Positions 1,799 through 9,051 of a stretch of 64,000 nucleotides of DNA are shown piece after piece. The stretch covers positions 1 to 64,000 of IMG/VR virus record IMGVR_UViG_3300015360_000042. One strand, given 5' to 3'. The translations under genes and the position numbers were made by a program. Under the pieces are notes generated by a model that did not search any database, had not been told where the DNA came from, and worked only from the letters and a program-made list of their open reading frames with translations. Position 1 is the stretch's first letter. Each line of letters opens with the position of its first letter. The DNA is from a virus.

Positions 1799-3496
1799 AT
1801 GTCAATTTCATTACAAACGTCTCTCACTCAACAACTACTCCAACGCGCAACAAATAACCTACACATGACATCTCCTGAAGAAATCGCTGTAGTAGGTAAA
1901 GCTGACTACGAAAGGGCCGTCAATGAAGGTTTTTTTGATGGTCCAGATGCGAGTAGTGTAAAACAATTTCATCGTCACTATGTTCTAACGGCCTACTCAA
2001 ACATTTACAGTCGATTAACTCTGAAACTTCAGCAAATTATACGCGAGGTGGATCAAATCAGTTCGTTTTACTTAGTTGATGTCGCTTTAAATCAAATTGT
2101 TGACGATGCTCTTGCTCCTAGAATGGGTGATGAGCAAATTTTTAAATTTTCGAGTACTGATCAATTAGTCGAAAAAACATTAAACGATATGCGCGAAACG
2201 ATTAATTTGGATCAAACTATTATGAACATCGCCTCGGATCTTTGCAAGTATGGCGAGTACGTTTTAAGCACCGATATCAAAAAGGATAGCGGAGTAATTG
2301 CGCTATACGATGATTTAGATCAGGGCACCGTTATATCAATTTCAAACAATGGCGACACTGTGGCGTATTTGGCCATGGATGAACTTAGAAGAACGGTTGA
2401 AGTAAAAGAGCTGGCCGATTACATAAAATTTACTCTCGGTGGTCAGAGAGTTAAGGTGATGTTTGACGATGCCATGCACGGCATGATGCATTCAAACAAG
2501 CAACTAAGAGATTACTATAAAAAAATCCCAAGATTCTTAAGAGTCGGCAAATCAGAAATTTATCCATTTATTGGAAAATTCAAAGAACTAGAATTATTAG
2601 AGAAGATGATTCCTGCCATGAAAATTAATAAACTTTCTCAAGGTAATTTAGTCGCCCTTCCAGTGCCTGATAATTTCGATCTAGAGCAAGGTTTAAATGC
2701 CGCTAGACGAGTCGAGGGCATGGTCAATAAGAAAGTAATGGTTGATCCAACTCAAGGCGAAATTACCGTTGAAGCGATCTTGTCCACGGCCGGAAAAACT
2801 AGGGTGATACCAGTTTTTGGCGACAAGGGAAGATTAGATAAAATGGATTACAAGTCCGATGACGCAGACGATTTATTTACTAATACAAAAGAGATTCGTG
2901 AAAACATTTTGGATTCAGTAGGCGTACCGTCAGAATTAATCTATAAGTCGGACAATCTTTCCAAAACAGATATCTTGAAAAGGTATGCTAAATATCTCAG
3001 AAAATTAAAAAAACTAAGAAAGGCCTTAGCGGAAGGTTTAAAAACTATTGCAGAAATTCATTTACAAAATAAAGGCATCTCGTATGTCGCAAAAGACATT
3101 GAAGTTACTTTTGTAAACACACTAGTAGAGATTGACAACCTTGATAAACTTGAGCACGCCGACATCACATTTTCAATGCTCACCAATGCCAAAAATTTTA
3201 TGGCCGACTTGGTTGCAGAGGATTCACCATATAAAGATTTAATTGATTTAAATAAGTTCGTTATTTACTTAGAATCAAATCTCAAAACAGTAGGCCTTCA
3301 AGATGTTTTAAAAACAAAAGAAGAGGGCGGAAAATCAATTAATAAACTTGATCAGATAGGCGAGACTCCAGGTACTGATCTACCGGATGCGCCTTCTACT
3401 AAAGAAGTTCCTAAAGCAAATAAGCAACAAGAAAAATATCCAAACATACCATTCAAGGTGAACATGCCTGAAAAGAAATTAAGGAGAAGAGTGTGA
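1799..3496 (+). CDS. Portal vertex protein (T4 gp20-like)
   Basis: A 565-residue protein with the size, order and sequence character of T4-like portal proteins, which form the dodecameric ring for DNA packaging and head-tail joining. Recognisable features are the N-terminal region with Tyr/Ser-rich helices, the central stretch around GIEP-type clip and stem residues (IREN...GVPSELIYKS, about residues 365-385) and the long basic C-terminal helix (ILKRYAKYLRKLKKLRK) typical of the crown. It starts at ATG 1799, five bases after the RRM gene, and its stop overlaps the GTG of the next gene. The terminase large subunit, often upstream, is not in the window. Confidence 0.85.
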   Translation: MSISLQTSLTQQLLQRATNNLHMTSPEEIAVVGKADYERAVNEGFFDGPDASSVKQFHRHYVLTAYSNIYSRLTLKLQQIIREVDQISSFYLVDVALNQIVDDALAPRMGDEQIFKFSSTDQLVEKTLNDMRETINLDQTIMNIASDLCKYGEYVLSTDIKKDSGVIALYDDLDQGTVISISNNGDTVAYLAMDELRRTVEVKELADYIKFTLGGQRVKVMFDDAMHGMMHSNKQLRDYYKKIPRFLRVGKSEIYPFIGKFKELELLEKMIPAMKINKLSQGNLVALPVPDNFDLEQGLNAARRVEGMVNKKVMVDPTQGEITVEAILSTAGKTRVIPVFGDKGRLDKMDYKSDDADDLFTNTKEIRENILDSVGVPSELIYKSDNLSKTDILKRYAKYLRKLKKLRKALAEGLKTIAEIHLQNKGISYVAKDIEVTFVNTLVEIDNLDKLEHADITFSMLTNAKNFMADLVAEDSPYKDLIDLNKFVIYLESNLKTVGLQDVLKTKEEGGKSINKLDQIGETPGTDLPDAPSTKEVPKANKQQEKYPNIPFKVNMPEKKLRRRV

Positions 3497-4038
3497 GCAA
3501 ATTAAGAAGCGTGCTTGATAAACACAACGCTGGTACTGAAAAAGTTGAAACCTTTGCGAGAGATACCCCACGTATTAACCAATTGAAAAAATATTTGGAT
3601 ACCATCGAGGATGGCATGGGACTTATGCGTAACGGATTCATTGGCATATCAAACGCCTACGATAAAGCTGATGTTGAAGGCAAATTTAATTTAAACGCAA
3701 TTCCAAATATCGTAATTTCTGAATTAGTAGATGACTTTCGTGATTGCGTATCAGACACGTTAGTTGATATTGAGCGAAATATTTACGAATCATTAAGCGA
3801 GGGTCAACATTACTCAACTAAATTAAGACAAGTTGAGGGTTCGGCCGGAACAAGAAAAGCAAGAATGGCAATCAAAGAAGCTAAGAAAATGGTTGAGAAT
3901 TTTTTAGATACCGACCACGCCTCACCAAGTCCAGTAGGCGAATCAGATACCAAAGCACTATCAATAGCAAAAGGTAATTTAGAAGAGGCAATTAAACAAC
4001 TTCACGAAGCTAAAGTTGCAAAAAAAAGCAGGGGATAA
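3493..4038 (+). CDS. Helical head-region protein, unknown function
   Basis: A 181-residue, largely helical and charged protein that begins with GTG at 3493, overlapping the portal stop by four bases (GTGA). The overlap and the AAGGAGAAGA ribosome binding site within the portal end support this start. There are no membrane segments or recognisable motifs; the last third is rich in Lys, Ala and Glu (EAKKMVENF, EEAIKQLHEAKVAKK), suggesting a coiled coil. Genes between portal and protease in T4-like phages commonly encode prohead core components, so a core or scaffold accessory role is possible by position only. Confidence 0.75.
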   Translation: MSKLRSVLDKHNAGTEKVETFARDTPRINQLKKYLDTIEDGMGLMRNGFIGISNAYDKADVEGKFNLNAIPNIVISELVDDFRDCVSDTLVDIERNIYESLSEGQHYSTKLRQVEGSAGTRKARMAIKEAKKMVENFLDTDHASPSPVGESDTKALSIAKGNLEEAIKQLHEAKVAKKSRG

Positions 4039-4660: not shown

Positions 4661-4891
4661 ATGTCGTCCACTGCCTCATCAATTAAAAAACTATGTGCGA
4701 AATTAGGTACGCAAGCCGGAAGAGAGCTTGCTAAAAATATAAACAATGAAACTCGCACCTTGCTTGTAGGTGCAATATCCATGCTATCAATGGCGAGTGG
4801 TATGTCCGATACAGAACCTCAGAGTGCGAGACTTCTTTATAGTCAGGCAAGACGCTTGATAGGGACTAAGGTGCCAGATGCCAAACGATAA
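4661..4891 (+). CDS. Small helical protein, unknown
   Basis: A 76-residue protein starting two bases after the previous stop and overlapping the next gene by 14 bases, so it sits firmly in the head-gene operon. It is Ala/Ser/Leu-rich with a central moderately hydrophobic helix (LLVGAISMLSMASGM) and a basic C-terminus. The helix is short and small-residue-rich for a true membrane span. No family recognised. Confidence 0.65.
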   Translation: MSSTASSIKKLCAKLGTQAGRELAKNINNETRTLLVGAISMLSMASGMSDTEPQSARLLYSQARRLIGTKVPDAKR

Positions 4892-5324
4892 CGATTTAGT
4901 TAAGGTTTATTTTCAACAATTAAATGAGCGAATCAACCGATTCGAAATTTTAATTAGTAAACTGTTTGATAACCAAACGGAAATGATGACTAAGTTAGAG
5001 AGAAACGTTGTATCGTTTGAAGATAGTAAGCAAAAAAATATCGCGTTTGAATCAATCCTGGAAAAGATGGGACACCACATTTCTGATATAACAAGTAAAT
5101 TAGTTTCAATGGAAAGAGATTTTAGCGGATTTCAGCGCGACGTACACGAGTTAGAAGAAGATATGACAATTGTAAAAAAACATGTTGATAAAGTTGATAG
5201 AACAATTTTTTTCTTTTCATCCTTGCCGTCGTTGGTTAAGGTTATCGTTCTATGTCTCACACTGATTACATCTGGCTATGGTTGTTATGTAATAATCAAA
5301 CCTAAAGAAGAAGTGACGAGATGA
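4878..5324 (+). CDS. Coiled-coil protein with C-terminal membrane segment
   Basis: A 148-residue protein: a long heptad-like coiled coil (about residues 8-110, ending LEEDMTIVKKHVDKVD) followed by one hydrophobic segment (LVKVIVLCLTLITSGYGCYVII, about residues 119-140) and a short charged tail. This coiled-coil-plus-C-terminal-anchor layout resembles XhlA-type holin-associated proteins, which suggests a membrane or lysis role, but the position among head genes is unusual for that. The stop overlaps the start of the interrupted methyltransferase gene (ATGA). Confidence 0.7.
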   Translation: MPNDNDLVKVYFQQLNERINRFEILISKLFDNQTEMMTKLERNVVSFEDSKQKNIAFESILEKMGHHISDITSKLVSMERDFSGFQRDVHELEEDMTIVKKHVDKVDRTIFFFSSLPSLVKVIVLCLTLITSGYGCYVIIKPKEEVTR

Positions 5325-6133
5325 CATCTTTTGAAGGATTATTTAAAATGACAAACAAAGGAGATTTGGGTTTGTCGGTGTCTCATAAAGTGAAAATCGA
5401 TCTACTGCACGGGGATTGTATTGAGCTTATGAAATCTATACCTAGTAAAAGTATAGACATGATACTGACAGACCCTCCGTAGCTTTATGGCACAACAGCT
5501 TGTAAATGGGATTCAGTTATTCCCTTTGAACCAATGTGGATTGAATTAAAAAGAATCATTAAAGATAATGGTGCAATCTGTTTATTTGGTTCTGAACCTT
5601 TTAGTTCTGCTTTGAGAATGAGTAATTTAAAAATGTTTAAGTATGATTGGGTATGGGAAAAAGAAAAGGGTACTGGATTCGCAAGGGCAAAAAAACAACC
5701 ATTAAGGAAGCACGAAATAATTTCAGTCTTTTATCAGCACCAACCATTTTACAACAGTATTGGCAATATTCTGGATAAACCCTACTCGCATACATTGCCG
5801 ATAAATAAAAGTGACTCTGATAATATTAGTGGTAGTGGATATGATGAAAATAATAAAAGAATTTACATCACATATACACACGCATCAAAGCACACAATTA
5901 TAAAAATAAGTAGAGATACAACAAGAAACTCAGTTCACCCTACTCAAAAACCCGTTCCATTATTAGAATATTTAATCAAAACCTACACATTAGAAAATGA
6001 AACAGTTTTGGATTTTACTATGGGTTCCGGTTCTACTGGTGTTGCTTGTAAGAATCTTAACCGTAGTTTTATTGGTATTGAAAAAGACGATGCTTATTTT
6101 GAAATAGCTAAAAATAGAATAAATAATGATTAA
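5321..6133 (+). pseudogene. DNA methyltransferase copy 1, interrupted by in-frame TAG
   Basis: One continuous reading frame from ATG 5321 to the stop at 6133, broken only by TAG at 5480-5482. The frame encodes the same beta-class amino-methyltransferase as the later copies: an HGDCIELMK start, catalytic TDPP(Y), a central target-recognition region, HPTQKP, and a C-terminal SAM-binding DFTMGSGSTG motif. Against copies 3 and 4 there is a 6-base insertion, GTAGCT, exactly between the codons of the DPPY motif, which both adds the stop and splits the catalytic tetrapeptide. A re-start at ATG 5534 would give a 199-residue fragment without DPPY and with no clear ribosome binding site. The remainder is intact, so the lesion looks recent, or the copy is kept as a silent donor. 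Confidence 0.85.
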
Positions 6134-6190
6134 TCTATTACATGGTGACTGTTTAGAATTAATGAAATCTATTCCTGATAAATCAATCAA
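6095..6190 (+). repeat. Methyltransferase junction repeat, first copy
   Basis: About 95 bases spanning the end of copy 1 and the start of copy 2 recur almost unchanged at 7554-7650 (end of copy 3, start of copy 4), with a more diverged version at 6844-6945. Each contains the ATGATTAA stop/start overlap. Such direct repeats let units be lost, gained or exchanged by homologous recombination. Confidence 0.85.
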
Positions 6191-6884
6191 CTTAGCAGTC
6201 ACCTCTCCACCTTATGACAATTTGAGAAATTATAATGGAACACTTGATTGGAATTTTGATATTTTTAAAGCAATTGCATTAGAGATAGCGAGAGTGCTTG
6301 AAGTGGGCGGTGTTATTGTTTGGATTGTAAATGATTCAACAATCAAGGGAAGTGAAACAGGTTCTAGTTTTAAACAAGCACTTTATTTCAAAGAAGAGTG
6401 TGGGCTTAATTTGCATGACACAATGATTTGGGAAAAGACGGGCCGAATACCTACACAGGACAGGTATTACGCGGTTACTGAGTATATGTTTATTTTCTCA
6501 AAGGGTAAGCCAAGGGCTATGAATTTCATTTGTGACCATAAAACGGTCAACGGTGGAAGGATTCAAAAAAAAGATGCTTGTATAAACAAAGGAAAGCAAA
6601 AAGAAGGGCAAGGTACTTTTATTAGAGCACATTTTTCGAGAAGATCAAATATTTGGAAAATTCATGTAGGAGAAAACTCAACAGGGCATCCAGCGGTGTT
6701 TCCTTTAAAGCTTGCTCAAGACCATATTATATCATGGTCAAATGAAGGAGATACTGTTTTAGACCCATTCATGGGAAGTGGTACAACTGGCCTCGCTTGT
6801 AAAAACCTTAACCGTAATTTTATCGGAATTGAAAAAGATGACAAATACTTTGAAATAGCTAAAAATAGAATAAATAATGATTAA
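6126..6884 (+). CDS. DNA amino-methyltransferase copy 2 (TSPPY type)
   Basis: A 252-residue SAM-dependent methyltransferase. The order is catalytic motif TSPPY (about residue 31), a variable central part, then GHPAVFP and the SAM-binding DPFMGSGTTG near the C-terminus: the beta-class arrangement of N4-cytosine and N6-adenine enzymes. TSPPY is frequent in N4-cytosine and some N6-adenine enzymes, so the modified base cannot be fixed. Its middle differs completely from copies 1, 3 and 4, but its first about 25 and last about 30 residues are almost the same as theirs, pointing to recombination at the ends. Start and upstream stop overlap in ATGATTAA. There is no restriction endonuclease nearby, so it is probably a protective orphan enzyme. 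Confidence 0.9.
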   Translation: MINLLHGDCLELMKSIPDKSINLAVTSPPYDNLRNYNGTLDWNFDIFKAIALEIARVLEVGGVIVWIVNDSTIKGSETGSSFKQALYFKEECGLNLHDTMIWEKTGRIPTQDRYYAVTEYMFIFSKGKPRAMNFICDHKTVNGGRIQKKDACINKGKQKEGQGTFIRAHFSRRSNIWKIHVGENSTGHPAVFPLKLAQDHIISWSNEGDTVLDPFMGSGTTGLACKNLNRNFIGIEKDDKYFEIAKNRINND

Positions 6885-7593
6885 TTTACTACACGGTGAT
6901 TGTTTAGAACTTATGAAAAAAATTCCAGATAAATCTATAGACATGATCTTAACTGATCCTCCTTATCAAACTACACAATGTAAGTGGGATATAATTATTC
7001 CCTTTGAACCAATGTGGATTGAATTAAAAAGAATCATTAAAGATAATGGTGCAATTTGTTTATTTGGTAGTGAACCGTTTAGTTCTGCTTTAAGAATGAG
7101 TAATTTGAAAATGTATAAATACGACTGGATATGGGACAAGGTTAAGCCTAATGGGCATTTGAACGCTAAGAAGCAACCCTTGGTTCTTAGTGAGCAGATA
7201 ATGGTTTTTGGTAATGGCAGGGTAAACTATTTACCTATTATGGAAAAAAGGGATAAAGTCAAAACTTCTAAGGTTTATTCTGTTTCCGCTGTTTACACAC
7301 ACACACAAAAGATAGACATTAACACAAGAATTTACTCACATAGATACCCTAAAAACCATATAAAGATCAGCAATGCCTCACAGAAAAACAGAACACATCC
7401 CACACAAAAACCAATTCCGTTATTAGAATATTTAATCAAAACATATACATTAGAAAATGAAACAGTTTTAGATTTTACTATGGGTTCCGGTTCCACTGGT
7501 GTTGCTTGTAAGAACTTAAATAGATCATTCATTGGTATTGAAAAAGATGACAAATACTTTGAAATAGCTAAAAATAGAATAAATAATGATTAA
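6877..7593 (+). CDS. DNA amino-methyltransferase copy 3 (TDPPY type)
   Basis: A 238-residue beta-class methyltransferase with TDPPY (about residues 27-31), a conserved early block (WIELKRIIKDNGAICLFGSEPFSSALR), a variable target-recognition part (about residues 85-170) and the SAM motif DFTMGSGSTG (about residue 210). The early and late blocks are close to identical to copies 1 and 4, while the middle differs, as expected if each copy recognises another sequence. The middle contains an (AC)6 run at 7295-7306. Start overlaps the previous stop in ATGATTAA. Likely role: modification of phage DNA against host restriction; the target is unknown. Confidence 0.9.
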   Translation: MINLLHGDCLELMKKIPDKSIDMILTDPPYQTTQCKWDIIIPFEPMWIELKRIIKDNGAICLFGSEPFSSALRMSNLKMYKYDWIWDKVKPNGHLNAKKQPLVLSEQIMVFGNGRVNYLPIMEKRDKVKTSKVYSVSAVYTHTQKIDINTRIYSHRYPKNHIKISNASQKNRTHPTQKPIPLLEYLIKTYTLENETVLDFTMGSGSTGVACKNLNRSFIGIEKDDKYFEIAKNRINND

Positions 7594-7650
7594 TCTATTA
7601 CATGGTGACTGTTTAGAATTAATGAAATCTATTCCAGATAAATCAATTGA
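7554..7650 (+). repeat. Methyltransferase junction repeat, second copy
   Basis: Near-identical partner of the repeat at 6095-6190, differing at only a few positions by eye (for example TATTTT against TACTTT and CCTG against CCAG). Recombination between the two would delete copies 2 and 3 together or swap the unit order. Confidence 0.85.
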
Positions 7651-8347
7651 TATGATCTTAACCGATCCACCCTATGGAACTACTTCATGTAAATGGGATT
7701 CAGTTATTCCATTCGATCCAATGTGGATTGAATTAAAAAGAATCATTAAAGATAATGGTGCAATTTGTTTATTTGGTTCTGAACCTTTTAGTTCACATCT
7801 TAGATTGAGTAATTTGAAAATGTTTAAATATGATTGGATTTGGAACAAAAATAGTTGTTCGGGATTTTTGAACGCAAAAGTAAAGCCAATGAATACCACA
7901 GAAATAATATCCATTTTCTCCAACGGGAAAACATCAAGTGGCAATAAAAATAATATGGTATATTATCCCCAAGGATTAAAGAAATACGAGAAGATAACAA
8001 AAAACGGAAACAAGATCGGAAAAGAAATGACAGGTGCGAGAAAGAACTCCACGCCTTCAACAACCATAGGGTATTTGCAAGAATTTACCAATTACCCTAG
8101 AAATTATTTAGAATACGGTTATCAAAAAAAAGCTGTTCATCCAACTCAAAAACCAGTTTCATTATTAGAATATTTAATCAAAACCTACACATTAGAAAAT
8201 GAAACAGTATTAGATTTTACAATGGGAAGTGGTTCTACTGGTGTTGCTTGTATTAATTTAAATAGATCATTCATTGGTATAGAAAAAGATGACAAATACT
8301 TTGAAATAGCTAAAAATAGGATTAACGAAGTCAAGGATGGAAAATGA
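7586..8347 (+). CDS. DNA amino-methyltransferase copy 4 (TDPPYGT type)
   Basis: A 253-residue beta-class methyltransferase with TDPPYGTTSCKWD (from about residue 27), the shared WIELKRIIKDNGA block, its own central region (about residues 85-185, rich in Gly, Asn and Lys) and the C-terminal SAM motif. It is the only copy whose C-terminus departs from the shared NRINND ending (it ends NRINEVKDGK), as expected for the last unit of a tandem duplication. It overlaps the previous gene by 8 bases and the next by 4 (ATGA). It retains the motifs needed for activity. Substrate sequence unknown. Confidence 0.9.
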   Translation: MINLLHGDCLELMKSIPDKSIDMILTDPPYGTTSCKWDSVIPFDPMWIELKRIIKDNGAICLFGSEPFSSHLRLSNLKMFKYDWIWNKNSCSGFLNAKVKPMNTTEIISIFSNGKTSSGNKNNMVYYPQGLKKYEKITKNGNKIGKEMTGARKNSTPSTTIGYLQEFTNYPRNYLEYGYQKKAVHPTQKPVSLLEYLIKTYTLENETVLDFTMGSGSTGVACINLNRSFIGIEKDDKYFEIAKNRINEVKDGK

Positions 8348-9051
8348 AATTTCTAAACGATTTAGATGCCAAAACTTTTCTATTAGAGATTGGCGCTTAC
8401 GATAAGGTAACAAATGCTAATAAAGGCTACGAGCCAACCGACGAAGAAATGGCCACGTTCGTAAAATCGCGATCAAAATTATCGTCTGGACTAAAAGACT
8501 ACAGAAAGGCATCAAAACAAAAAGCAAATTGGAGAAACAATAGAACAAAAATGATGAAAGGAATTAAGGCCTTCCATCGCTCTGTTGATGGTAAACGATT
8601 TCATAGAAATCTTGGGCGATTTTTGGCATCAAGGATTTCAAGATCAAAAAATGAATCATTAACTTTTTTTGAAAAAGGCGATCAGCTAAAGGCGCTTTGT
8701 TCGGCAAAACAACATTTGTTTTTAGAACTTGATTACTTCCATCAAATTGAAGAACAAATAGAATTGGAAGAAATATTTTTAGATCATTCGATCCCGTTGT
8801 TTCAGTCAATTGAAAATAAGTTATTAAATGAGGGCGATCTAGATACTGACGAATTATCTTTTTTATTAGATTTTACTGACAGAAACAACCTTTTCGCGGC
8901 ACTTTCGGAGAAACTAGCTAGACCATTTGAAGAAATTTCGAGTATGTGGCAAAATATGGAAAGCGAGTTAGAGTCAGAAAATATTGCAAAAGACGATGAT
9001 AAGTTCTATCCTACTCTAATCGATAGACTTAACGTAGCATTAGGATTTTAA
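8344..9051 (+). CDS. Head-region protein with basic helical centre, unknown
   Basis: A 235-residue protein overlapping the last methyltransferase by four bases and ending directly before the protease ATG. Residues about 50-110 are strongly basic and aromatic (KQKANWRNNRTKMMKGIKAFHRS, then GKRFHRNLGRFLASR); the rest is acidic and helical. The basic block resembles, in my memory, a segment of prohead core or head-assembly proteins of T4-related phages, but I cannot verify that. By position, between the portal region and protease, a prohead core or capsid-assembly function is the best guess. No catalytic motif is visible. Confidence 0.75.
   Translation: MKFLNDLDAKTFLLEIGAYDKVTNANKGYEPTDEEMATFVKSRSKLSSGLKDYRKASKQKANWRNNRTKMMKGIKAFHRSVDGKRFHRNLGRFLASRISRSKNESLTFFEKGDQLKALCSAKQHLFLELDYFHQIEEQIELEEIFLDHSIPLFQSIENKLLNEGDLDTDELSFLLDFTDRNNLFAALSEKLARPFEEISSMWQNMESELESENIAKDDDKFYPTLIDRLNVALGF

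Follow-up and report, generated by a model that had tools for sequence, protein, structure and literature searches.

The head operon of a T4-like phage in the IMG/VR virus record IMGVR_UViG_3300015360_000042 (66,425 bases, of which a stretch of 64,000, here called the window, was analysed) contains four consecutive methyltransferase frames on the + strand, at 5321-8347. We propose, with a probability of roughly 60%, that they form an array of orphan beta-class methyltransferases built by duplication and recombination, whose target recognition domains (TRDs) come from a phage-wide pool and which methylates several motifs as a defence against restriction. At the level of sequence the proposal is carried by the anatomy of the array, the junctions that its copies share, the mosaic composition of the enzyme family, one TRD transfer between other phages, and the lack of any such array in the relatives compared. 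A first-pass annotation of this DNA had already recognised four tandem methyltransferase genes in the head operon; indeed, the frames lie where it placed them, PF01555 is matched in each, and head genes surround them.

Copy 1 (5321..6133) carries a 24-residue N-terminal extension ahead of the conserved start, as well as an in-frame TAG codon at 5480-5482. Copy 2 (6126..6884) has a TSPPY core, while copies 3 (6877..7593) and 4 (7586..8347) are of the DPPY type. PF01555 scores 111-157 bits, against a cut-off of 26.7, in copies 2, 3 and 4 and in the part of copy 1 that follows its stop, and the intact copies are 238-253 residues long. Successive frames overlap by the same 8 bases, ATGATTAA, on the + strand: 6126..6133 at the junction of copies 1 and 2, 6877..6884 between copies 2 and 3, and 7586..7593 between copies 3 and 4. 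Copies 1-3 end in RINND, which corresponds to the next start region read in another frame, and copy 4 has a tail of its own (EVKDGK). As the first-pass annotation had noticed, copy 2 joins its different core to shared ends (approximately its first 20 and last 37 residues) and to the same overlaps. These overlaps suggest that the copies are translationally coupled. A ribosome-binding match is absent from all four copies; since 28 of the 59 genes listed in the window also have none, we took this absence as a weak sign of coupling, and it is the overlaps that point to it.

In beta-class methyltransferases, the N-terminal motifs (IV-VIII) are followed by the recognition domain and then by the C-terminal motifs X and I. 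The copies display this order, with motif IV (DPPY/SPPY) in the N-terminal part, the TRD in the middle and motifs X and I in the C-terminal part, as seen in the alignment of the copies, in alignments with CcrM and DpnA chains, and in a structure model of copy 4. This model, built on 72 family members, has a pLDDT of 90.4, with residues 31-38 poorly modelled, and its best structural matches are M.BceJIV, CcrM, MboIIA, M1.HpyAVI and RsrI (Z 23-25.5). The fold does not reveal the methylated base, because N4-cytosine enzymes such as PvuII come close behind (Z 22). The variable centre of copy 4, residues 87-184, occupies the position of the beta-class recognition domain. Sequence and model together identify the variable centres as the predicted TRDs of beta-class methyltransferases.

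The centres, all on the + strand, span 5657..5935 in copy 1 (from the segment split), 6438..6683 in copy 2, 7135..7395 in copy 3 and 7844..8137 in copy 4. The first-pass annotation held those of copies 1, 3 and 4 to be unrelated, in agreement with BLASTP, which among the four centres aligns just 17-25-residue stretches located inside the first 34 residues. Protein identity to the best outside match is 39% for the TRD of copy 1, 77% for copy 2 (the centre of locus L083), 49% for copy 3 (L048) and 55% for copy 4 (L007), and at this level (39-77%) none of the window copies finds its own TRD in a different frame. Each frame contains one centre and stops separate the frames, so the array is not a multispecific enzyme with several TRDs per polypeptide. 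The repeats of an inversion cassette are also missing, as only two inverted pairs occur in 4800-9000, both weak (70% and 74%) and neither framing the centres.

Evidence that TRDs move comes from the wider family. A pool of 154 DPPY-type sequences was divided by an alignment-based split into N end, TRD and C end, which worked for 149 of them (146 from IMG/VR loci and three window copies) and replaced an earlier regular-expression split that had kept 60 of the 154. Of the resulting 11,026 pairs, 90 fall in the 80-90% range for the identity of their less similar end, and in 86 of these 90 the TRDs are unrelated (normalised score <0.25); the other four score 0.25-0.5, with none above. The TRDs are alike in all eight pairs whose ends are at least 90% identical, so whole genes also spread. 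In the clearest transfer, between L161 and L048, the TRDs agree at 253 of 258 bases (98%) versus 211/258 and 137/186 for the ends (74-82%; Fisher p 2e-15), and the synonymous divergence (dS) is 0.063 in the TRD, 0.84 in the N end and saturated in the C end. In 20-codon sliding windows along the aligned frames, identity climbs to 93-98% from about codon 61 and drops again from about codon 171, which places the edges of the exchange near the TRD borders. Weaker cases are L144/L146 (TRD 97%, N end 92%, C end 80%) and L044/L056 (88%, 81% and 73%, respectively).

These comparisons indicate that, outside the window copies, recombination moves TRDs between conserved ends in this family. The first-pass annotation had seen in the array itself a cassette whose recognition regions are swapped by recombination. 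Such swapping is demonstrated elsewhere in the family, by L161/L048 and by the 86 of 90 pairs, whereas recent swapping of centres among the four copies is not shown. Two further arrangements were observed in the family. At L146:14961-15730 a methyltransferase is split into two overlapping frames, and the contig that holds it, IMGVR_UViG_3300028048_000072, also holds the L146 and L161 methyltransferases, the latter being the partner in the TRD transfer. A 4.3-kb contig, L011, has two family methyltransferases (2-268 and 3264-3995) about 3 kb apart, with other genes between.

Judged by the relatives of the phage, the array is probably an addition to its locus. Its upstream neighbour is a coiled-coil-like gene (4878..5324, + strand), identified by profile search and by comparison of relatives, and its downstream neighbour, known from the same comparison, is a conserved gene that precedes the prohead protease (8344..9051, + strand). 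We compared 48 loci, namely 44 of the 80 kept from a capsid alignment and four named phages; other searches for relatives yielded 12 matches to a pattern of the 8344 gene, none confirmed, and a single one with the capsid protein alone. An 8344-type gene and a capsid gene are both present in 12 of the 48 loci (13 counting L155, where the match lies in the protease frame). Copies 2-4 have no match in the stretch compared of any of these 12, and the sole match among the 48 loci, at the edge of L311, is weak and fragmentary. Moreover, in L082, L279, L281 and L283 the coil gene is directly followed by the 8344-type gene, which corresponds to an empty site. Given these empty sites and the lack of the array in all 12 relatives, it is most simply read as an insertion in the lineage of the array phage. 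These relatives are distant, with a capsid identity of 66% at best. Polaribacter phage P12002L, Psychrobacter phage D'Alembert and Vibrio phage vB_VnaS-L3 have annotated methyltransferase genes and no overlapping array in the stretches examined. Comparison of the same locus in related phages, by which the first-pass annotation hoped to detect swapped centres, gave no such comparison because the relatives are without the array.

Copies 2-4 are intact; copy 1, which the first-pass annotation counted among its four genes, is currently interrupted. The alignment of the copies reveals two extra codons, TAG CTT (5480..5485, + strand), so that the stop falls inside motif IV (DPP-stop-L-Y): copy 1 reads DPP-stop-LYGTT where copies 3 and 4 read DPPYQTT and DPPYGTT, and its PF01555 match lies only past the stop, at 5534-6130. 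Read-through of copy 1 by TAG recoding is unsupported, because TAG is the ordinary terminator of 12 of the 59 listed genes and ARAGORN found no tRNA gene in the window, a scan that stopped 2,425 bases short of the end of the record. If translation is coupled, the stop may lower the output of copies 2-4 too.

What the enzymes are used for was approached through their surroundings. The position of the array suggests late expression. Promoter-like sites in the window are at shuffle level (42 vs 44.5), and terminator-like sites number 10 versus 6.5 in shuffled sequence (sd 2.7). In a survey of the neighbours of 60 out of 127 eligible family methyltransferases, taking one large frame per side within 400 bases, 15 of the 120 neighbour proteins match the leading terminase PHROG, which by raw count makes terminases the commonest recognised neighbours. 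Pfam assigns Terminase_6N to 10 and Terminase_3 to 7 of the same 120. This neighbourhood fits late genes. Protection against restriction would be the likeliest use, since specificity is the part that varies. That the genes serve another purpose, whether a packaging mark, the regulation of late genes or none at all as mere passengers, appears unlikely. The abundance of terminases next to family members speaks for it, as does a broken copy 1 with no visible loss in the others; a packaging or regulatory mark, however, would favour a fixed motif, yet the TRD varies, and the relatives manage without these genes.

The junctions and ends of the four copies are informative on how these arose. Junctions 1/2 and 3/4 share 28 identical bases before and 50 after the ATG (78 exact), junctions 2/3 and 3/4 share 49 bases before the ATG and 9 after it, and the first 60 bases of copies 2 and 4 agree at 59 positions. 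Recent copying thus looks limited to short stretches at the junctions, and this pattern is what copying of junctions by unequal recombination would leave.

The bulk of the ends behaves differently. According to the first-pass annotation, the ends of copies 1, 3 and 4 are nearly identical, and for protein this is correct: copies 3 and 4 agree in 71 of 79 aligned residues at the N end and in 57 of 60 at the C end. In DNA it does not hold, with identities among the three copies of 81-85% (N) and 86-90% (C) by global alignment, or 80-84% and 84-89% by blastn, and dS of 0.57-1.5. In a blastn comparison with the pool, the best match is a sibling for five of the eight ends (N and C of copy 1, N of copy 2, and C of copies 3 and 4) and a gene of another phage for the remaining three. 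For copy 3, the N end is nearest to L010 (88% over 234 bases, vs 84% for copy 4); for copy 4, the N end is nearest to L014 (86%, vs 84% for copy 3); and L010 is again the nearest for the C end of copy 2 (92%, vs 85% for the sibling). Neither L010 nor L014 has any match to the head genes of the array phage. Given the DNA identity of 81-90%, the dS values and the three ends nearest to other phages, the similarity of the ends appears to be mostly a family trait and not proof of exchange inside the array phage. Recent homogenisation of whole ends within the array was rejected by the same dS and by outside genes as near as siblings for three of eight ends. The ends are probably special to the array only weakly: ranked by the less similar end, the sibling pairs come 7th, 26th and 55th among 11,018 pairs.

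These data also bear on an active cassette, in which the tandem copies would recombine during infection and generate new combinations of ends and TRDs. We consider it quite unlikely. The shared junction stretches and the 59 of 60 matching first bases of copies 2 and 4 would be expected of it, and one of six run-permutation tests on the ends is significant (copies 3/4, C end, p 0.0025). Copies 3 and 4 also group in the C-end tree with a support of 92, from a search that was incomplete as a constrained tree beat the free one, and by mean end identity the closest partner of each of copies 1, 3 and 4 is a sibling, with a small margin. On the other hand, dS between the ends is 0.57-1.5, and for copies 3 and 4 (N end) and copy 2 (C end) the nearest sequences belong to other phages.

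Several points weigh against the proposed array of recombining, protective methyltransferases. The bulk ends of copies 1, 3 and 4 are old, as the dS values indicate, and the end trees are compatible with one origin or with several, monophyly of these copies not being rejected (AU p 0.42-0.58). The pool was gathered with peptide patterns taken from the window copies, with no more than 80 loci admitted from each scan, and the pairs drawn from it are not independent. Of the 47 pairs whose TRDs are related, just two pass a filter that requires the TRD to be clearly closer than the ends; L015/L022 shows the reverse, its TRD being less similar than its ends. The clear transfer lies between other phages, and none of these pairs involves a window copy. 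Finally, copy 1 is broken, and the T4 late-promoter motif TATAAATA shows no enrichment (6 occurrences vs 8.9 expected).

Tandem sets of this kind are found elsewhere. A survey of 268 loci, some sharing a contig, for methyltransferase frames less than 300 bases apart returned ten groups, four of which have clearly shared ends: the window, L023, L265 and L098. L265 comprises a pair of DPPY-like genes whose ends are 82% and 76% alike and whose centres do not match. L098 has three genes, one DPPY type of 442 residues and two TSPPY types; over 206 bases, the C end of its copy 1 is 93% alike to that of copy 2 and 86% to that of copy 3, and its copies 2 and 3 resemble each other from end to end (74%). 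Shortly before this set, L098:4452-5303 contains two adjacent similar frames with glycine-rich repeat tails. L023 combines a TSPPY copy with a DVPY copy, the first of which ends in a near copy of the tail of the upstream gene, as tandem duplication would produce. One pair in L107 is 70-74% alike in both halves. A pattern scan of viral contigs for the junction type of the window returned three contigs, and the fusion is absent from all of them. It is very improbable that the copies owe their order or number to an artefact of metagenome assembly: the record does come from a metagenome and the junction stretches are plausible jump sites for an assembler, but exact junction repeats do not exceed 78 bases and L023, L265 and L098 also have tandem copies that share their ends.

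In the mechanism that we favour, orphan beta-class methyltransferases would have been inserted as extra genes into the head operon of a T4-like phage. The array would then have grown by tandem duplication or unequal recombination, copying the junction of C end and N end, while the recognition domains would be drawn from a phage-wide pool, with the conserved N and C ends serving as homology arms for their replacement. The genes would be translated in series with the head genes, copies 2-4 would be active on different motifs, and their marks could shield new phage DNA from restriction in later hosts. If so, part of the phage world shares a bank of TRDs set in common end sequences and sometimes stacked in tandem. 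This would help to predict which phages cross restriction barriers and would give insight into methyltransferase specificity through naturally occurring TRD transfers; long-read methylation data on phage DNA offer a direct check of the shared bank. A more speculative extension, which we find doubtful, is that tandem arrays are self-renewing banks of specificity: the ends would be landing sites for TRDs from co-infecting phages, unequal crossing-over would alter copy number, and dead copies such as copy 1 would act as donors. The phage would then carry a heritable modification repertoire, updated much as bacteria update hsdS or mod.

The genome that hosts the array is that of a T4-like phage, judged by its portal gene (1799, Portal_T4 match), prohead protease gene (9052, Peptidase_S77 match) and capsid gene (10496, Gp23 match). 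The capsid protein is 40% identical to its counterpart in Rhizobium phage RHph_TM39, and megablast of the first 25 kb against phages returned no match. Two other genes lie upstream of the array. A small RRM-type RNA-binding protein gene (1539-1793; NF058537, E 5e-21, under the curated cut-off) sits between a papain-like gene and the portal gene, in an order kept in L082, L279, L280 and L283. The preceding gene, 650-1468, has a weak match to a YiiX-type papain-like enzyme (E 8.8e-6, under the cut-off) and is also matched in these four loci. Restriction-enzyme matches were absent from NCBIfam searches with the 4878 and 8344 genes and from a Pfam search with the 4878 gene, the rest of the record being unsearched; in these profile searches of the two neighbours of the array, no res gene was found beside a mod gene as in a Type III system.

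Several known systems resemble the array in part. Methylation of gut phages by phage enzymes has been reported as widespread (PMC10477858, consulted in part). We found no account of a phage methyltransferase array of this kind in the titles and abstract openings surveyed, among which few subscription journals were covered, and the part of PMC10333322 consulted yielded nothing on TRD exchange. The fold of the phage enzymes is that of CcrM, MboIIA, RsrI, M.BceJIV and M1.HpyAVI (Z 23-25.5), and the sequence motifs at both ends are like those of CcrM and of the DpnA-type M1.HpyAVI; these enzymes are, however, single genes, whereas the phage copies form an array with unlike TRDs. The sets in L023, L265 and L098 also consist of adjacent or overlapping copies with shared ends, and in L023 and L098 similar C ends are likewise found on a TSPPY core and on a DPPY/DVPY core, but these sets have two or three copies, other junctions and other neighbours. 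Temperate Bacillus phages encode multispecific methyltransferases with several TRDs in one enzyme, which, according to the parts of the source consulted, protect against several restriction systems (PMC12707154). The array would similarly offer several specificities at once, with one TRD per gene and beta-class enzymes where the Bacillus phages have several TRDs per polypeptide and, by a cited title, C5-cytosine enzymes. Another precedent is in Helicobacter pylori, where the TRDs of Type III Mod and Type I S genes are described, in the sections consulted, as moving by recombination at conserved-motif sequences (PMC3983042; PMC3077401). As in those genes, conserved flanks surround a TRD that is replaced (PMC3983042), but the enzymes described here are short orphan phage enzymes whose genes stand in tandem within a head operon, and no restriction gene was recognised next to these. 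Movement of TRDs is already known, and we regard the tandem orphan array of this phage as a variant of it.

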